IMG/VR virus record: IMGVR_UViG_3300021197_001900 | Span: 1-35,875 of that record | Origin: a virus | DNA: 35,875 bases | Reading direction: 5' to 3' (one strand) | Shown: piece after piece, positions 1,792 to 35,875 of the stretch | Position numbering within the stretch: position 1 is the stretch's first letter | Layout: the number at the start of each line of letters is the position of its first letter | The notes under the pieces: generated by a model | The model's input: the letters and a program-made list of their open reading frames with translations, nothing else | The model's database searches: none | What the model was told of the DNA's origin: nothing | Position numbers and translations under genes: made by a program

Positions 1792-1938
<147 letters not shown>

Positions 1939-3942: not shown

Positions 3943-4009
3943 GAAACCAGACTGGGAGTTTGGGAAGGACCGCGTCTGCCAGTACGCGGGATAAATCGAC
4001 TGGCGTTTT

Positions 4010-4109
4010 GCCTGCTGTTGGACGCTCATCACATTCACAAATGAAAGGGAACCGTGCCGTGGAAGGTCTTAATTCCCCGATGAAGTCGGGTTCGACTCCC
4101 GAAGCAGGT
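4010..4109 (+). ncRNA. tRNA-like RNA 1 (acceptor and T arm, no anticodon arm)
   Basis: A 100-nt intergenic segment folds with a 7-bp acceptor-like stem (GCCTGCT 4010-4016 with AGCAGGT 4103-4109, one G-U pair at the end), directly stacked on a perfect T arm (TCGGG-TTCGACT-CCCGA, 4086-4102). Immediately 5' of the T arm, GATGAAG (4079-4085) pairs with CTCATC (4025-4030) with one bulged A, in the place of an anticodon or variable arm. A D-loop-like GTTGG follows the acceptor stem. The 48-nt apical part has no 7-nt anticodon loop; a GGGAA/TTCCC pairing is possible there. A run of six T (4115-4120) follows. The architecture resembles the tRNA-like domain of tmRNA in outline, but with no reading frame. 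A second element of the same design is at 33010. Function unknown. Confidence 0.55.
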
Positions 4110-4141: not shown

Positions 4142-4471
4142 ATGACTGCTGCTGTACTAGCAATGGGTTTGTTTTTTAGTTGGACGCCTGGCGTGAAAAC
4201 GCGAACACGCTCCTGTGAAATCAAACGTGAGGTGACGGTGACCAAGACTGTCGAATTGACTGATCAGGAGGCGTGCGAAGAAGAGTGCAAACGAATGATT
4301 CAATTTCGACGCATGCACGTTTTCAAGACGCCTGCTGGATGTTTTGAAGGATGCGGGATCAGTCGAAGCAAGGACGTTTCCACTTGCAGGCCAAATCGCA
4401 AGATGCGTTTGACCGGCGACTGCACAATTGAAAGGAATGGTTGGTTTTATCGCTGTCGCTTGTGGCGATAG
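4142..4471 (+). CDS. Secreted or membrane-anchored Cys-rich protein
   Basis: 109 residues from ATG 4142, with an AAGAAGGA ribosome site about 9 nt upstream. Residues 2-13 (TAAVLAMGLFFS) form a short hydrophobic segment, a possible signal sequence, though without a clear basic n-region. The rest is basic and has eight Cys (SC, ACEEEC, GCFEGC, STC, GDC, YRC) whose even number and paired spacing suggest disulfides in an exported protein. I do not recognise the family. Position between replication genes makes an envelope role, such as exclusion, conceivable but unproven. Confidence 0.65.
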   Translation: MTAAVLAMGLFFSWTPGVKTRTRSCEIKREVTVTKTVELTDQEACEEECKRMIQFRRMHVFKTPAGCFEGCGISRSKDVSTCRPNRKMRLTGDCTIERNGWFYRCRLWR

Positions 4472-7000: not shown

Positions 7001-7301
7001 GTCACAATTTGAAAAGATGTTACGAGCACTAAAAGACGCCGAACGTCAGGTCGAGGTTCAGGACGAGACAATCAACGATTTGCGAGCAGAAAACAAGCAA
7101 CTGCGTGAAAGGAGTTGGGAAATAAGTGAGGAGAAAAGGAACATCGACATGCGCCGCATCGAAGCAGAGGATGCGTTGCTGTACGAGCGACGCGAAGTGC
7201 AGCGGTTGCGAGAGGAGAACGAGCGCATGAAGTTTGTGATCCAAAACGGACTTGGATCGGAAGACCTTGTGGATGATCGAAAGGAGGTGGGTGATGAGTG
7301 A
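6993..7301 (+). CDS. Coiled-coil hypothetical protein
   Basis: 102 residues from ATG 6993, overlapping the RusA-like stop. Almost the whole protein is a charged heptad-like helix (ERQVEVQDETINDLRAENKQLRE, then EVQRLREENERMKF), hence a coiled coil that likely dimerises. The 3' end of the gene holds the AAAGGAGGTG ribosome site of the next gene. Partner and role unknown. Confidence 0.7.
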   Translation: MSESQFEKMLRALKDAERQVEVQDETINDLRAENKQLRERSWEISEEKRNIDMRRIEAEDALLYERREVQRLREENERMKFVIQNGLGSEDLVDDRKEVGDE

Positions 7302-7569
7302 TAAGATCAGTGGTGGCGACATTGCCCGAAGCATCAAAGAGTACCATCAGGAGTGCGAAGTCCGTTTGAACGCCGAGATCAAGCGGCTTCATGAACTTGT
7401 TGAGGCGGGCAAGGAGGATCGCAAGGCGATTGACGAACTTGTCGATGAGAATGTGCGACTGCGTGGGTTGATGCGGAATCTTGTGGAGAACGCTGAAGGT
7501 GGGGACTACGGTGAGATAATTGTCCTTGATGTTGACTTTATTGAGATCGAAAAGGAGGTGGGTAAGTGA
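7294..7569 (+). CDS. Second coiled-coil hypothetical protein
   Basis: 91 residues from ATG 7294, preceded by AAAGGAGGTGGG with good spacing and overlapping the upstream stop. Its centre is helical and charged (LNAEIKRLHELVEAGKEDRKAIDELVDENVRLRGLMRNL). The C-terminus (IIVLDVDFIEIEKEVGK) ends much like the preceding protein (DRKEVGDE), because both gene ends carry the same purine-rich ribosome-site block. The two could be a partnered or duplicated pair. Confidence 0.7.
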   Translation: MSDKISGGDIARSIKEYHQECEVRLNAEIKRLHELVEAGKEDRKAIDELVDENVRLRGLMRNLVENAEGGDYGEIIVLDVDFIEIEKEVGK

Positions 7570-22394: not shown

Positions 22395-22817
22395 ATGGCA
22401 GACATTAGCGCAACCATACGAACTCTAACAATTGCTGACAGCGATGTGTCTGCTCTTGTAGGAACACGCATGTACTCAGATGTGTTGCCGCAGAAATGCA
22501 CGATGCCTGCCATCGCATACCAAGTCATTAGCACGGTTGCTAACGAAGAATTAGTTAATGTTACTGCACTGACTAGAGCACGGATACAGATTGATTGTTT
22601 CGCGAAAACTCGCGGTGAGGCCAATCAGTTAGCGGAGAAGGTGAGGATCGCGCTGCACAAAAAGCATCGCGGAGATAACTCTGGACAATGGATCGACGAG
22701 ATCAGTCTTGCTGGTGGCGAGGAACATGAATTTGTTCAACCCGAGGCAGGGACCGATCAGCGACGATTCATAACAAGTCAAGACTTTTTTGTTTTTTACC
22801 AGACCACTACCTCATAG
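22395..22817 (+). CDS. Tail terminator / completion protein (DUF3168-like)
   Basis: 140 residues from ATG 22395, directly after the preceding stop. The pattern is that of tail completion proteins: an N-terminal helix, then DSDVSALVGTRMYSDVLPQKCTMPAIAYQVIS (the 'g.ri....ap.....P.i.y..i' box), then TRARIQIDCFAKTRGEANQLAEKVRIAL and a beta ending FFVFYQTT. These proteins cap the tail tube at the head-proximal end. Position before the tail tube gene fits. Confidence 0.85.
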   Translation: MADISATIRTLTIADSDVSALVGTRMYSDVLPQKCTMPAIAYQVISTVANEELVNVTALTRARIQIDCFAKTRGEANQLAEKVRIALHKKHRGDNSGQWIDEISLAGGEEHEFVQPEAGTDQRRFITSQDFFVFYQTTTS

Positions 22818-30404: not shown

Positions 30405-31652
30405 ATGAGTTGCAAAACAAACACATCTGTACCTTCTGGGCCAATGCCATTGTTGATTCTTCAACAGCGGCAACAAATTTGCGATGCCTGCGAGCACAAC
30501 AAGCATGGGGTTTGCAAGATTATTTCACGAAGGCATACATCAGCAAAAGCAATCATTGCTGATGGTATAAAGCGGGGCTCGCTAAAATGCCCGGTTGCGA
30601 AATGGAATTCAATCAAACGCATTTGCCCAGGTTGCAATCGACGAATTGAGGTCGATGAAATTAGCAATGTATGTCGCTGGTGCGATGTAAAACAAAAGTG
30701 TGGGGGTCGCGGAGGTGCAGCGGGATCGAAATTCCGAAAAGGCAATCCGTTTAGTTTGACGCAGGGAAAAGCGATGTGGATTTCAGCAGAAGACTTGGCA
30801 AGAGATGCAGTTCGGTTGTCGCAGTTGATACCAGCAGAAACTAAGGCAATTGTTGGCGTTGCAAGATCAGGCATCACGCCAGCAAACATAGTTGCAACAA
30901 TGCGACATCTGCCTCTGCTGGCAGTTCGGCAAACGCTCAATGATGTTATTGAGGTTGGTAATGGTTGGCGTATGGGTGGCAATAACCATGTTAAAATCAA
31001 GCCACATGAAATGGTTGTTGTTGTTGATGATACGGTGATGACCGGCAACTCATTCATTTCAATTCAAGACATTGTCTCGCGAACATTTCCAAGACACAAA
31101 ACAGCAGCGTGCTACGTCAATCCGTTGGCTAAGAAAAAGCCGGACATCTGGATCAGAGAACTTCCTGCACCGCACATTCTTGAATGGAATATATTTAACA
31201 GCGTCTACAGTCCAAGTATCGCGGTGGATTTTGACGGAGTGCTCTGCGACGATTGCCCACTAGGTGATGATGATGACGGGCGAAAATACATTGAATTTTT
31301 GACTAACGCTCGACCAAAGTATGTCGTTCGCAAAGCCACGATACCTCTGATTGTAACCGCAAGACTTGAAAAGTATCGAGCGATAACAAATGAGTGGTTG
31401 CAGAGACATGGGATAACGTGTCACAGGCTTGTGATGCACCCAGCAGCAACGCTTGCGGAAAGAAGACGCGATGACATTGCTGCATTTAAGGCAAGAGAAT
31501 ATTTAGGTTGGGTGACAAGTCATCGAGCTAATCCAGCACCAGCTATGTTTGTTGAGTCGGAGGATCGCCAAGCGCAGCGAATTGCACAATTGTCTGGGAG
31601 GCTAGTTGTTTGCCCCTCGTCTCGGCAGGTCTATGGAGATCCTCGGCAATGA
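30405..31652 (+). CDS. Zinc ribbon - phosphoribosyltransferase - HAD-like fusion protein
   Basis: 415 residues from ATG 30405. Residues 26-95 have Cys pairs of zinc ribbons (CDACEHNKHGVCK, CPGCNRRIEVDEISNVCRWC). Residues about 125-260 form a type I phosphoribosyltransferase: AIVGVARSGITPANIV as the PPi loop, then EMVVVVDDTVMTGNSF (about 202-217), the PRPP-binding signature with its DD pair. Residues about 270-400 are a HAD-like domain opening with SIAVDFDGVLCDDCP (nucleophile Asp and DxD-type start), then IPLIVTARLEKYRAI with the Thr of motif II. Such PRTase-HAD fusions act on nucleotides or sugar phosphates. It begins the late cassette of sugar-related genes, but its substrate is not evident. 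Confidence 0.8.
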   Translation: MSCKTNTSVPSGPMPLLILQQRQQICDACEHNKHGVCKIISRRHTSAKAIIADGIKRGSLKCPVAKWNSIKRICPGCNRRIEVDEISNVCRWCDVKQKCGGRGGAAGSKFRKGNPFSLTQGKAMWISAEDLARDAVRLSQLIPAETKAIVGVARSGITPANIVATMRHLPLLAVRQTLNDVIEVGNGWRMGGNNHVKIKPHEMVVVVDDTVMTGNSFISIQDIVSRTFPRHKTAACYVNPLAKKKPDIWIRELPAPHILEWNIFNSVYSPSIAVDFDGVLCDDCPLGDDDDGRKYIEFLTNARPKYVVRKATIPLIVTARLEKYRAITNEWLQRHGITCHRLVMHPAATLAERRRDDIAAFKAREYLGWVTSHRANPAPAMFVESEDRQAQRIAQLSGRLVVCPSSRQVYGDPRQ

Positions 31653-32203
31653 GAACAGCAGTCACGCTTGTCGCTAAAGGTCCATCGGCTAAAAACGCAC
31701 TTGCAATTGTGCGTGATGGAGATGCTATCGCATGCGTTAACGATGCTGGCATGCTGCTGCCAGGCGAAGAGATTGATTACGTTTTTTTTAGTGATGCAAA
31801 TGTATTCCCACTGCTAGAGCCAATGCGTGATCGCTTTGAGCGTGCCATCAGTCGAAAGATGAATCAAGCGCAATTGGAAAGCATGCCTGACTGGCTTGTC
31901 ATGCGACACAGCATGTACGACGACATCAGTTGTGCAGGCGAGCACGATGAACTTTGCCAGCGTGTGATACTTGGTGGAATTATGCACCACCATAGTACGC
32001 CTGGTGCGTTGCACTGGCTTGCAAAGTATGGGAAGTACAACACGATTCGAGTCACCGGCGTTGATGGTGGAACACGTTACGCCAATAACCTGTCTGCAAC
32101 TGGTGCAGCAAAGTATGACCTCGATGAGTGGGCAACGGTAACGAGGCGGGTTGGTGACATTTGCTCGCGAGTTTATGGAACGGTTATCGAGTGGCATTCA
32201 TGA
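31649..32203 (+). CDS. Sialyltransferase / DUF115-like glycosyltransferase candidate
   Basis: 184 residues from ATG 31649, overlapping the fusion gene stop (ATGA). It opens TAVTLVAKGPSAKNALAIVR, which matches the nucleotide-binding 'vxxGxGPS' loop of GT42/GT29-like sialyltransferases and DUF115 (Maf) proteins, followed by DAIACVNDA and YVFFSDANV, the usual '.N.a......d..f..D' stretch. Further on, HHHSTPGALHWLAKYGKYNTIRVTGVDGG is like the '(S/T)G..a...A...G...i...G.D' box of the same group. It is shorter than most members (usually above 250). Its partner gene makes an activated sugar, so transfer of a CMP-linked sugar is a coherent reading; the acceptor is unknown. Confidence 0.55.
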   Translation: MRTAVTLVAKGPSAKNALAIVRDGDAIACVNDAGMLLPGEEIDYVFFSDANVFPLLEPMRDRFERAISRKMNQAQLESMPDWLVMRHSMYDDISCAGEHDELCQRVILGGIMHHHSTPGALHWLAKYGKYNTIRVTGVDGGTRYANNLSATGAAKYDLDEWATVTRRVGDICSRVYGTVIEWHS

Positions 32204-32865
32204 AAGTTATCATTCCAGCCAAAGCATGCAGCGAGCGAGTGCATGACAAAAACTGGCGACCGTTTATAGATGATTTTTCGCTTGTAGACATTACGATCAC
32301 TAAGTTGATTGCTGCTGGATTCAACTCGCAAGACATTATCGTAAGCAGCGAATGCGAAAACAGATTGCAGGCAGCGGTAAAAAGGCACGGCATCGTGCCA
32401 ATGCTGCGGGATCTTGCGATGTGCTGCAACGATCTCTCGCTTTGCACATGGATACGCAGCACAGTTGAGCAAGCAGGTATCGAAGGTGATGTCGCGTGGG
32501 CCCAGGTCACCAATCCGGCATTTACGCAATACGCACATTGCGTAAGCACATGGGAAAGCGTCAGACACTTCGCAGACTCGCTGGTTGTTGCCTACCCGGT
32601 CAAACGCTATTTGATGATGGAAGCAGGTAGCTGGATGCGACCAATCGGTTGGTCTTTTGGTGAGCACCACACAAAGAGTCAGCAGTTGCCGATGATGTAC
32701 GAGATGCCGTTCACATTTTCAATACTGTCGCAAGAATCAATCGAGCGATCAGGCTACCACATTGGGCTCAGACCGCATTGGTTTGTTGCAGATGGCAAAT
32801 GTATCGACATCGACACAGAGGACGATTACAGGGCAGCACAGGCGTATTATTCAGCAACTCACTAG
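32200..32865 (+). CDS. CMP-sugar synthetase-like cytidylyltransferase (NeuA-like)
   Basis: 221 residues from ATG 32200, overlapping the previous stop (ATGA). The N-terminal MKVIIPAKACSERVHDKNWRPF matches the 'IPAR.gS.r...KN' nucleotide-binding loop of acylneuraminate cytidylyltransferases, with Lys-Asn kept and the Gly replaced. Then come DIIVSSECENRLQAAVKRHGI, a strand plus helix as in NeuA, and WAQVTNPAFTQYAHCVSTWE in place of 'qpTsPl....di...i'. The C-terminus, GKCIDIDTEDDYRAAQAYY, is the family's typical end, with metal-binding Asp in DID. It should join CTP to a 2-keto-3-deoxy sugar such as a nonulosonic acid. It ends the cassette and is followed by a strong terminator. Confidence 0.75.
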   Translation: MKVIIPAKACSERVHDKNWRPFIDDFSLVDITITKLIAAGFNSQDIIVSSECENRLQAAVKRHGIVPMLRDLAMCCNDLSLCTWIRSTVEQAGIEGDVAWAQVTNPAFTQYAHCVSTWESVRHFADSLVVAYPVKRYLMMEAGSWMRPIGWSFGEHHTKSQQLPMMYEMPFTFSILSQESIERSGYHIGLRPHWFVADGKCIDIDTEDDYRAAQAYYSATH

Positions 32866-32893
32866 CGAGCGATTCTAGACCCCCGCCTCGCGG

Positions 32894-32931
32894 CCCCGCA
32901 GGTTGCCCTCACCAGCCTGCGGGGTTTTTTT
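32894..32931 (+). terminator. Intrinsic terminator after the sugar cassette
   Basis: A perfect 9-bp GC-rich stem (CCCCGCAGG 32894-32902 with CCTGCGGGG 32916-32924) and seven T. It lies 29 nt after the CMP-sugar synthetase-like gene and closes the long late operon. Confidence 0.92.
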
Positions 32932-32963: not shown

Positions 32964-32993
32964 TTGCGTAGGTGACGATACTGTGCATATACT
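32964..32993 (+). promoter_or_regulatory. Candidate sigma70-type promoter for the tRNA-like RNA
   Basis: TTGCGT (32964-32969), an 18-nt spacer and TATACT (32988-32993). The expected start, near 33000, is about 10 nt before the acceptor stem of the RNA at 33010. The -35 box is weak. Directly after the terminator, a fresh promoter is expected. Confidence 0.5.
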
Positions 32994-33009
32994 TAAGGAA
33001 CGCTAAGAC

Positions 33010-33138
33010 GATGCGAGCTAACGGCAGCAGCCAGACGCTACTTGATTGTGCAGGGATTGACTCTGCGGCTTTAGCGGGCCGCGACCAAACGGCGCACAAT
33101 CATGCTGGTGTAGTCAGGGTTCGATCCCCTGTCGCATC
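33010..33138 (+). ncRNA. tRNA-like RNA 2 (acceptor and T arm, long helix in place of the anticodon arm)
   Basis: A 129-nt segment with a perfect 7-bp acceptor stem (GATGCGA 33010-33016 with TCGCATC 33132-33138) directly next to a perfect T arm (CAGGG-TTCGATC-CCCTG, 33115-33131). One base 5' of the T arm ends a long helix: CTAC (33038-33041) pairs with GTAG (33110-33113), and TGATTGTGC (33043-33051) pairs with GCACAATCA (33094-33102), with a 7-nt internal loop on one side. Its tip has a GCGGC/GCCGC hairpin (33065-33082). A D-arm-like stretch (33017-33031) includes a GG pair in the loop. Anticodon loop and CCA are absent. The design equals that of the RNA at 4010. It resembles the tRNA-like part of tmRNA or Y-RNA relatives but has no tag frame and no Ro gene nearby. 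Function unknown. Confidence 0.65.
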
Positions 33139-33152
33139 TACCCATACACATT

Positions 33153-33233
33153 GCTGGGTCGCACACATACGAAAGGTGGTGCGACCGCTGACGAGCGGCG
33201 TGGCGATCACGATTCGGTGCGACCCAGCTTTTT
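33153..33233 (+). terminator. Switch-like terminator with alternative hairpins
   Basis: GCTGGGTCGCAC (33153-33164) pairs perfectly over 12 bp with GTGCGACCCAGC (33217-33228), followed by five T. But its inner eight bases (GGTCGCAC) can also pair with GTGCGACC at 33179-33186, because GGTGCGACC occurs twice (33178 and 33216). The two pairings exclude each other. Between them lie CCGCT/AGCGG and CGTG/CACG hairpins. Terminator versus antiterminator control of the three small genes downstream is possible. Confidence 0.65.
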
Positions 33234-33879: not shown

Positions 33880-33909
33880 CCAGCGGGAGTCCTAAACCTC
33901 TCCCGCTGG
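33880..33909. terminator. Hairpin after the small-gene operon
   Basis: A perfect 10-bp stem (CCAGCGGGAG with CTCCCGCTGG) and a 10-nt loop, without a T run on the + strand. Probably a Rho-aided or processing stem marking the end of the + strand genes. Confidence 0.6.
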
Positions 33910-33919
33910 TCAGCACTGT

Positions 33920-34130
33920 CATTCAGGTTGACCCCCACCATACCGGTGATGCTCGTCATTCAGGTTGACCCCCACCATACCAGCCATGCTCGTCATTCAG
34001 GTTGACCCCCACCATACCGGCGATGCTCATCATTCAGGTTGACCCCCACCATACCGGCGATGCTCATCATTCAGGTTGACCCCCACCATACCGGCGATGC
34101 TCGTCATTCAGGTTGACCCCCACCATACCG
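33920..34130. repeat. 37-bp tandem repeat array (5.7 copies)
   Basis: Five full copies and a 26-nt partial copy begin at 33920, 33957, 33994, 34031, 34068 and 34105. The conserved part is CATTCAGGTTGACCCCCACC followed by ATACC; variation is confined to GGTGATGCTCGT versus AGCCATGCTCGT or GGCGATGCTCAT. There is no unique spacer and no gene. The array abuts the next, unrelated array without a gap. Confidence 0.92.
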
Positions 34131-34479
34131 CTGAGCTCCCAGGATCCCTGACAGCATCAACCACTGAGCTCCCAGCTTCCTGGCAGCATCAACCACTGAG
34201 CTCCCAGGATCCCTGGCAGCATCAACCACTGAGCTCCCAGGATCCCTGGCAGCATCAACCACTGAGCTCCCAGGATCCCTGGCAGCATCAACCACTGAGC
34301 TCCCAGCTTCCTGGCAGCATCAACCGCTGAGCTCCCAGCTTCCTGGCAGCATCAACCACTGAGCTCCCAGGATCCCTGGCAGCATGAACCACTGAGCTCC
34401 CAGGATCCCTGACAGCATCAACCACTGAGCTCCCAGGATCCCTGGCAGCATCAACCACTGAGCTCCCAGCTTCCCAGGC
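34131..34479. repeat. 32/33-bp tandem repeat array, left copy
   Basis: Eleven direct copies beginning CTGAGCTCCCAG. Two unit types alternate irregularly: 33 bp with AGGATCCCTGG and 32 bp with AGCTTCCTGG, each followed by CAGCATCAACCA. Each 33-bp unit holds a GAGCTC palindrome and a CCAGG/CCTGG stem. All frames across it are open, giving spurious reading frames. The same units reappear at 35530-35875 in the same orientation. Confidence 0.92.
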
Positions 34480-34583
34480 CGTTTGGGGGGGCATGCCCCC
34501 AAACGCAACAAACCCTGCCAGGGTATCCCCTGGCAGGGTTTGTAGTTTGTTAGTTTGTTAGTTTGTTAGTTTGTTAGTTTGTT
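34480..34583. terminator. Two strong hairpins and an 8-bp tandem repeat at the 3' end of the minus-strand gene
   Basis: The first hairpin has a 10-bp stem (CGTTTGGGGG 34480-34489 with CCCCCAAACG 34496-34505). The second is a perfect 16-bp stem (34508-34523 with 34528-34543) with loop TATC, containing CCTGCCAGG/CCTGGCAGG. Then follow about five copies of TTAGTTTG up to the gene's stop codon. On the minus strand these lie just downstream of the gene and probably end its transcript. Confidence 0.75.
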
Positions 34584-35427: not shown

Positions 35428-35485
35428 AGTCTTAAACCTTAAGATGTGGTGATTTGTTACTAGGGGAATCCCAGTAACTGTACGT

Positions 35486-35514
35486 ATTGTTATGGCATCG
35501 GCTAACAATGTCAA
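35486..35514 (-). promoter_or_regulatory. Sigma70-type promoter of the minus-strand gene
   Basis: Read on the minus strand: TTGACA (35514-35509), a 17-nt spacer and AACAAT (35491-35486). The -35 is perfect. The start would lie near 35479, giving a leader of about 50 nt before ATG 35427. This decides against translation starts inside the repeats. Confidence 0.65.
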
Positions 35515-35529
35515 CAGCATTAATAAAAA

Positions 35530-35875
35530 TTGAGCTCCCAGCTTCCTGGCAGCATGAACCACTGAGCTCCCAGGATCCCTGGCAGCATCAACCACTGAGC
35601 TCCCAGGATCCCTGGCAGCATCAACCACTGAGCTCCCAGGATTCTGCCATCAACTGAGCTCCCAGGATCCCTGGCAGCATCAACCACTGAGCTCCCAGGA
35701 TTCTGCCATCAACTGAGCTCCCAGCTTCCTGCCATCAACTGAGCTCCCAGCTTCCTGGCATCAACTGAGCTCCCAGCTTCCTGGCATCAACTGAGCTCCC
35801 AGCTTCCTGGCATCAACCTAGCTCCCAGCTTCCTGCCATCAACTGAGCTCCCAGCTTCCTGCCATCAACTGACCT
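35530..35875. repeat. 32/33-bp and shorter repeats, right copy, to the window end
   Basis: About twelve direct copies of the TGAGCTCCCAG unit. The first few are the 32/33-bp types; later ones are shortened to about 26 bp with CTGCCATCAAC or CTGGCATCAAC. The array runs off the window end, which is probably where assembly stopped. No gene is supported here. Confidence 0.9.

Follow-up and report, generated by a model that had tools for sequence, protein, structure and literature searches.

The IMG/VR virus record IMGVR_UViG_3300021197_001900 stems from an uncultured phage, comprises 35,875 bases and is classed as linear; the window analysed here is this entire record. Its gene content is that of a tailed phage, including a tyrosine integrase, TerL, portal, a ClpP-type protease, capsid and tape measure. 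About 4% of the stretch 1900-33900 consists of intergenic gaps, and inside such gaps lie two tRNA-like elements: element 1, behind the late operon, and element 2, between two early genes (Table 1). The integrase gene (619-1761) is directly followed by the 3' fragment of a tRNA-Lys(TTT) on the minus strand (1800-1858), which lacks a 5' acceptor strand. This fragment is an ordinary attP candidate and likely represents attP, and a similar fragment is found at about 22498-22566 of the Planctopirus limnophila plasmid pPLIM01, which carries phage genes. Tandem arrays at 33882-34500 and 35480-35875, composed of a 37-mer (CAGGTTGACCCCCACCATACC...) and 33/26-mers (GAGCTCCCAGCTTCCTGGCAGCATCAAC), flank a gene of the GP88 family. 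In the late module (30405-32865), one protein combines a phosphoribosyltransferase-like domain with a weak polynucleotide-kinase match, and the next one is weakly cytidylyltransferase-like; a search of viral contigs yielded no relatives.

Element 1 (33010-33138) was originally predicted to combine a perfect 7-bp acceptor stem with a perfect 5-bp T arm, and both are indeed present. The acceptor consists of seven Watson-Crick pairs, while the T arm carries the consensus T loop and adjoins the acceptor without gap. The discriminator is a U and no CCA is encoded. Over 130 nt, the MFE amounts to -52.5 kcal/mol (z -2.48), and the MFE structure retains acceptor and T arm (pair probabilities of 0.85-1.0 and, for the T stem, 0.93-0.97) with a long branched arm between the two. 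This arm replaces the anticodon arm, as had been proposed. However, it is not the suggested interrupted helix of 13 bp, but branched, with 16 interrupted pairs that enclose two to three hairpins: a perfect 9-bp helix, the helix ACGCTA/TGGTGT and, in the MFE structure, one more pair. The D-region includes AACGGCA and thus a GG as in the D-loop of tRNAs.

Since element 1 sits between a terminator and a hairpin with a U5 run, it is plausible, judged from this layout, that it forms a free-standing RNA. The upstream terminator was found where the original prediction expected one. Of the candidate promoter claimed there as well, the hexamers exist, but they are weak and were not scored by the promoter scan. 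The downstream hairpin was absent from that prediction and ends the putative unit in a terminator-like manner.

Table 1. Positions of the tRNA-like elements and of neighbouring features in the window.
Feature	Position	Strand	Basis or remark
Intrinsic terminator of the upstream (late) operon	32892..32931	+	14-pair hairpin + T7
Weak promoter-like hexamers TTGCGT-18-TATACT	32964..32993	+	read from sequence; below promoter-scan threshold
Element 1, acceptor 5' strand GATGCGA	33010..33016	+	sequence, fold
Element 1, D-region GCTAACGGCAGCAGCCAG with GG	33017..33034	+	sequence
Element 1, branched long arm (ACGCTA/TGGTGT, C-G, TGATTGTGC/GCACAATCA, inner hairpins)	33035..33111	+	MFE; arm folded alone, z -2.84
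Element 1, T arm CAGGG-TTCGATC-CCCTG	33115..33131	+	sequence, geometric scan, pair probabilities
Element 1, acceptor 3' strand TCGCATC (33132-33138) + U discriminator (33139)	33132..33139	+	sequence, geometric scan
Terminator-like 3' hairpin GCTGGGTCGCAC/GTGCGACCCAGC + TTTTT	33153..33233	+	12-bp outer stem, z -5.9
Hairpin GCCAGT/ACTGGC + TTTT, directly upstream of element 2	3978..4009	+	sequence
Element 2, sibling tRNA-like element	4010..4109	+	geometric scan; homologues L113:1341-1438, L112:1460-1557
Gene for a small Cys-rich protein, directly downstream of element 2	4142..4471	+	relatives in L112 (94%), L113 (78%), G022 (68%)

A geometric scan of the window delivered three T arms and exactly two complete elements, elements 1 and 2; the third T arm belongs to the tRNA-Lys fragment by the integrase. 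To compare this geometry with chance expectation, strict criteria were employed that demand at least 6 Watson-Crick acceptor pairs, a perfect T stem, a TTCRA loop and a length of 60-200 nt. Markov shuffles of the window (n=3000) led to an expectation of 0.0103 elements per window, or 0.002 with a 7/7 acceptor, and none of the 3000 contained two. Among other viral loci (1.11 Mb scanned) two matches were obtained, both from one tRNA cluster of the locus L068: a tRNA-like element (7266-7380) and an ordinary tRNA-Gly. The former comprises 115 nt, encodes ACCA, has its anticodon arm replaced by a branched one and abuts the normal tRNA-Gly; a 95-nt tRNA-Cys with a long arm is located nearby.

No homologues of element 1 were detected in the viral loci searched, in phage or plasmid records, or by an exact-pattern scan of viral contigs. 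In the latter, its 3' half found no match, and the 3' half of element 2 found one, in an unrelated, haloarchaeal-looking virus. A DNA similarity search of phage and plasmid records gave nothing convincing, and a scan of genome contigs based on the TerL alignment returned only distant proteobacterial prophages. The regions behind the DUF669-like gene of 16 distant phages contain no T arm. TerL relatives exist in L002 (98%) and L003 (89%), the latter spanning only the equivalent of about 4.8-25.5 kb and thus neither of the element positions. For the late proteins adjoining element 1, the viral collection offered no relatives, so that the covariation comparison covers element 2.

The small Cys-rich protein gene behind element 2 led to the loci L113 and L112, both of which possess a homologue of element 2 in the same place. 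In the window, element 2 comprises the acceptor GCCTGCT/AGCAGGT, the D-region GTTGGACGC, arm A (TCATC/GATGA), arm C (GGGAA/TTCCC), which includes a ribosome-binding site, and the T arm TCGGG-TTCGACT-CCCGA. Short ORFs pass through it. Its folding energy is unremarkable, and the inner region is no more stable than shuffled sequence (z +0.67). The element of L113 reads GCTCGCA ... TCAGG-TTCGATT-CCTGA-TGCGAGC, and that of L112 is the same except for its 3' strand TGCGGGT. If the four helices of the window and L113 are compared, 9 of the 22 pairs are changed, six of these in both partners (acceptor pairs 3, 4 and 7, pair 2 of arm A, pair 1 of arm C and pair 3 of the T stem), and not a single pair is broken. 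Because MAFFT misplaces the 5' strand of the element 2 acceptor, the count was based on exact substrings aligned by hand according to structure, with the length difference assigned to the D-region. While acceptor and T stem had been defined from the window alone and before the L113 sequence was known, arms A and C were derived by looking at both sequences and carry less weight; in L113 and L112 a hairpin (TGGTTA/TAATCA) competes at the position of arm A. Because L112 and L113 hardly differ, the comparison comprises two independent sequences. Compensatory changes in homologous phages, on which the original prediction was made to depend, are thus found in the element at 4010, the only one to which this comparison was applied. 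Elements 1 and 2 share the same architecture, with MAFFT and BLAST similarity confined to the T arm. What speaks for element 1 is its predicted geometry and architecture, and the support from homologues concerns element 2.

Further members of the group were encountered as well. In L112 and L113, the stop codon of the DUF669 gene is immediately followed by a mini-element consisting of GGGTC, AATGGTTTTT, GAGTGG-TTCGATT-CCACTC and GGCCC. The 48-kb record G022 has a 73-nt element (L117:1495-1423) directly after a small gene ending in EEIPF. It is composed of GAGGGGG, ACGGT, an 8-bp arm, TCAGG-TTCGATT-CCTGA, TCCCCTC and U5, and its T arm is identical, letter for letter, to that of L113. In front of the G022 copy of the Cys-rich protein gene the element is missing. 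ARAGORN recognised none of the elements of L112, L113 and G022, and in Rfam those of L113 and G022 reached no more than tRNA-Sec scores below the threshold, which spanned the element in full. Every element has GG in the D-region, and the acceptor/T stack measures 12 bp in element 1, element 2 and the L113 element and 11 bp in the L113 mini-element. A hairpin with a U-run precedes element 2 and its L113 homologue at a distance of 0-2 nt; in L113, AGCAC/GTGCT + T7 occupies the place of the window hairpin.

None of the known RNAs with tRNA-like parts that were compared accounts for these elements. ARAGORN detected neither tRNAs nor a tmRNA in the window. In a search of all Rfam families at E<=10, neither element was significantly matched and the tRNA model was absent, its only match in the window being the fragment 1800-1858 (-). 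Checks against the tmRNA, YrlA and tRNA models had been proposed along with the original prediction, and element 1 matches none of the three at this threshold; its best match, mascRNA, is insignificant (19.3 bits vs 42.5 needed). Both elements display the 7-bp acceptor, the 5-bp T arm and the TTCRANN loop of a canonical tRNA, but not the cloverleaf with a 5-bp/7-nt anticodon arm. They resemble the tRNA-like domain of tmRNA in their 7-bp acceptor, T arm, GG D-loop with little or no D stem and long helix in place of the anticodon arm. In contrast to tmRNA, they have about one third of its length and no pseudoknots in the MFE structure. At position 3-70, element 1 has U-A and element 2 has C-G, so that the alanylation identity G3-U70 is absent, and a tag frame ending in -ALAA was not recognised on reading the arms of either element. 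The tmRNA models of Rfam, standard or permuted, matched neither of them and gave only an 8.8-bit T-arm fragment in L113. Identity with tmRNA was rejected on the basis of Rfam and the identity pair.

YrlA likewise contains a tRNA-like module without anticodon arm and is a possible tRNA competitor (PMC7790460). However, the window elements close the acceptor with their own 5' and 3' ends, the models of YrlA and bacterial Y RNA gave no Rfam match at E<=10, a Ro-binding helix motif was not seen by eye and an Rsr/Ro gene was not recognised among the window proteins scanned. M3 RNA and the C4 antisense RNA of P1/P7 are small phage RNAs which are cut by RNase P (PMC11143913), while the elements match no Rfam family and an antisense target was not found in the window. 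The mascRNA of MALAT1 is a tRNA-like fold that serves as RNase P processing signal, yet it is eukaryotic, has a short anticodon-like loop and shows no homology. Haloviruses of the HF1 group are reported to possess conserved tRNA-like sequences of aberrant secondary structure (PMC7230728, PMC8707807), to which no function was assigned (PMC7230728); they are, however, archaeal and unrelated. L092, whose proteins look haloarchaeal, shows comparable mini-elements before genes, mostly shorter than those of the window and without the long arm. On the minus strand of L092 and L106 (L106 10504-10468, 9554-9512 and 7806-7740), short acceptor plus T-arm elements precede ORFs that share a recurring leader (...CACCCTGTCGGGCG...GACGGGACACAACCAACC-ATG), which gives the impression of transcripts punctuated by tRNA-like structures.

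With two elements of one geometry where chance would give 0.010, no Rfam match and compensatory changes in the sibling at 4010, the originally proposed tRNA mimic is supported. As far as can be judged from sequence, 33010-33138 is a real structured RNA form that imitates the acceptor-T half and elbow of a tRNA, with a branched helix replacing the anticodon arm. Based on geometry, non-randomness, the lack of a matching known RNA family and the compensatory changes at 4010, the elements are real and make up an undescribed set, probably a family, of predicted anticodon-less tRNA-like elements in this phage group.

Other explanations deserve consideration. That the elements are chance inverted repeats is extremely improbable: the folding energy of element 2, if taken alone, would fit this idea (z -0.11), but neither the shuffles nor the compensatory changes of element 2 nor the location of both elements within the intergenic gaps do so. 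It is very unlikely, too, that the elements are tRNA genes that have decayed or been interrupted, or pieces of tRNAs that integration left at att sites. The window does hold the tRNA-Lys fragment by the integrase, and L068 has odd tRNAs beside normal ones. However, att fragments such as 1800-1858 comprise the 3' part only, without a complementary 5' acceptor strand, while the stems of the elements are perfect and those of element 2 are kept by double changes. An interrupted tRNA was rejected for element 1, as the flanks of its arm cannot form a normal anticodon stem.

A more serious rival is a cis-acting leader. The thrS operator is tRNA-like, and in a similar way element 2, and perhaps element 1, might regulate how the next gene is translated, the tRNA-like top acting as sensor. 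The ribosome-binding site in arm C and an ORF starting inside the element give this idea its weight. In L112 and L113, AAAGGAAGG, which is paired in arm C, represents a good ribosome-binding site and is followed by GTG, and in L112 a C5-cytosine methyltransferase ORF (L112:1513-2310, Pfam E 1e-50) begins at this GTG within the element 2 homologue. In L113 the methyltransferase is not present at this place. We nevertheless regard a leader as unlikely, since the corresponding GTG of the window opens 9 codons only and a terminator-like hairpin separates element 1 from the next gene. Quite unlikely, in our view, is a trans-acting decoy, in which an anticodon-less tRNA top half would occupy anticodon nucleases, RNase P, the CCA enzyme, EF-Tu or SmpB and thereby shield the phage from tRNA-directed defence. 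A similar idea was proposed for YrlA (PMC7790460), and the free-standing layout of element 1, with a terminator on one side and a terminator-like hairpin on the other, is consistent with it. Yet element 2 lies inside an early operon and overlaps a ribosome-binding site, neither of which a pure decoy needs. For element 1, a decoy against tRNA-directed defence is a conceivable role.

We favour, with roughly even chances of being right, that the elements are read by host machinery that measures the acceptor/T stack and the elbow, above all RNase P. This enzyme clamps the tRNA elbow and requires a loop resembling the T loop, but can do without the D-loop (PMC4919913), and besides the phage M3 and C4 RNAs it cleaves mRNAs (PMC11143913). 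The substrate features, a coaxial acceptor/T stack of about 12 bp and an elbow, are present in the predicted structures of elements 1 and 2, and the parts used by elbow readers (11-12 bp coaxial stack, T loop and D-region GG) are kept in all elements. RNase P would cut element 1 at 33009/33010, trimming of the 3' end behind the acceptor would follow, and the product would be a stable free-standing RNA of about 130 nt whose branched arm might be the functional payload. Element 2 could act as punctuation or leader: an equivalent cut would divide the mRNA into two parts and stabilise both, and the ribosome-binding site built into the arm may thereby become exposed or hidden. After such a cut, the U-run hairpin upstream of element 2 and its L113 homologue would provide the upstream mRNA with a terminator-like 3' end. 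The original prediction also mentioned a guide to RNase P; complementarity of element 1 to other parts of the window comprises no stretch of at least 11 nt, which argues against a guide directed at mRNAs of the phage itself. One might speculate further, and this we put forward with considerable reserve, that a class of phage small RNAs uses the tRNA top half as docking handle for a variable payload, is freed by host tRNA-processing enzymes and acts against tRNA-directed defence or reprograms host RNA processing.

Structures resembling tRNAs are well known from plant RNA viruses and a few stable RNAs. In Rfam and the literature searched, however, we found no description of conserved anticodon-less tRNA mimics with compensatory changes in tailed bacterial phages. 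Since the elements are invisible to ARAGORN and Rfam, similar ones have probably been missed in other phages. With these elements, two questions become directly testable: whether phage transcripts are punctuated by RNase P sites, and whether phages make tRNA decoys.
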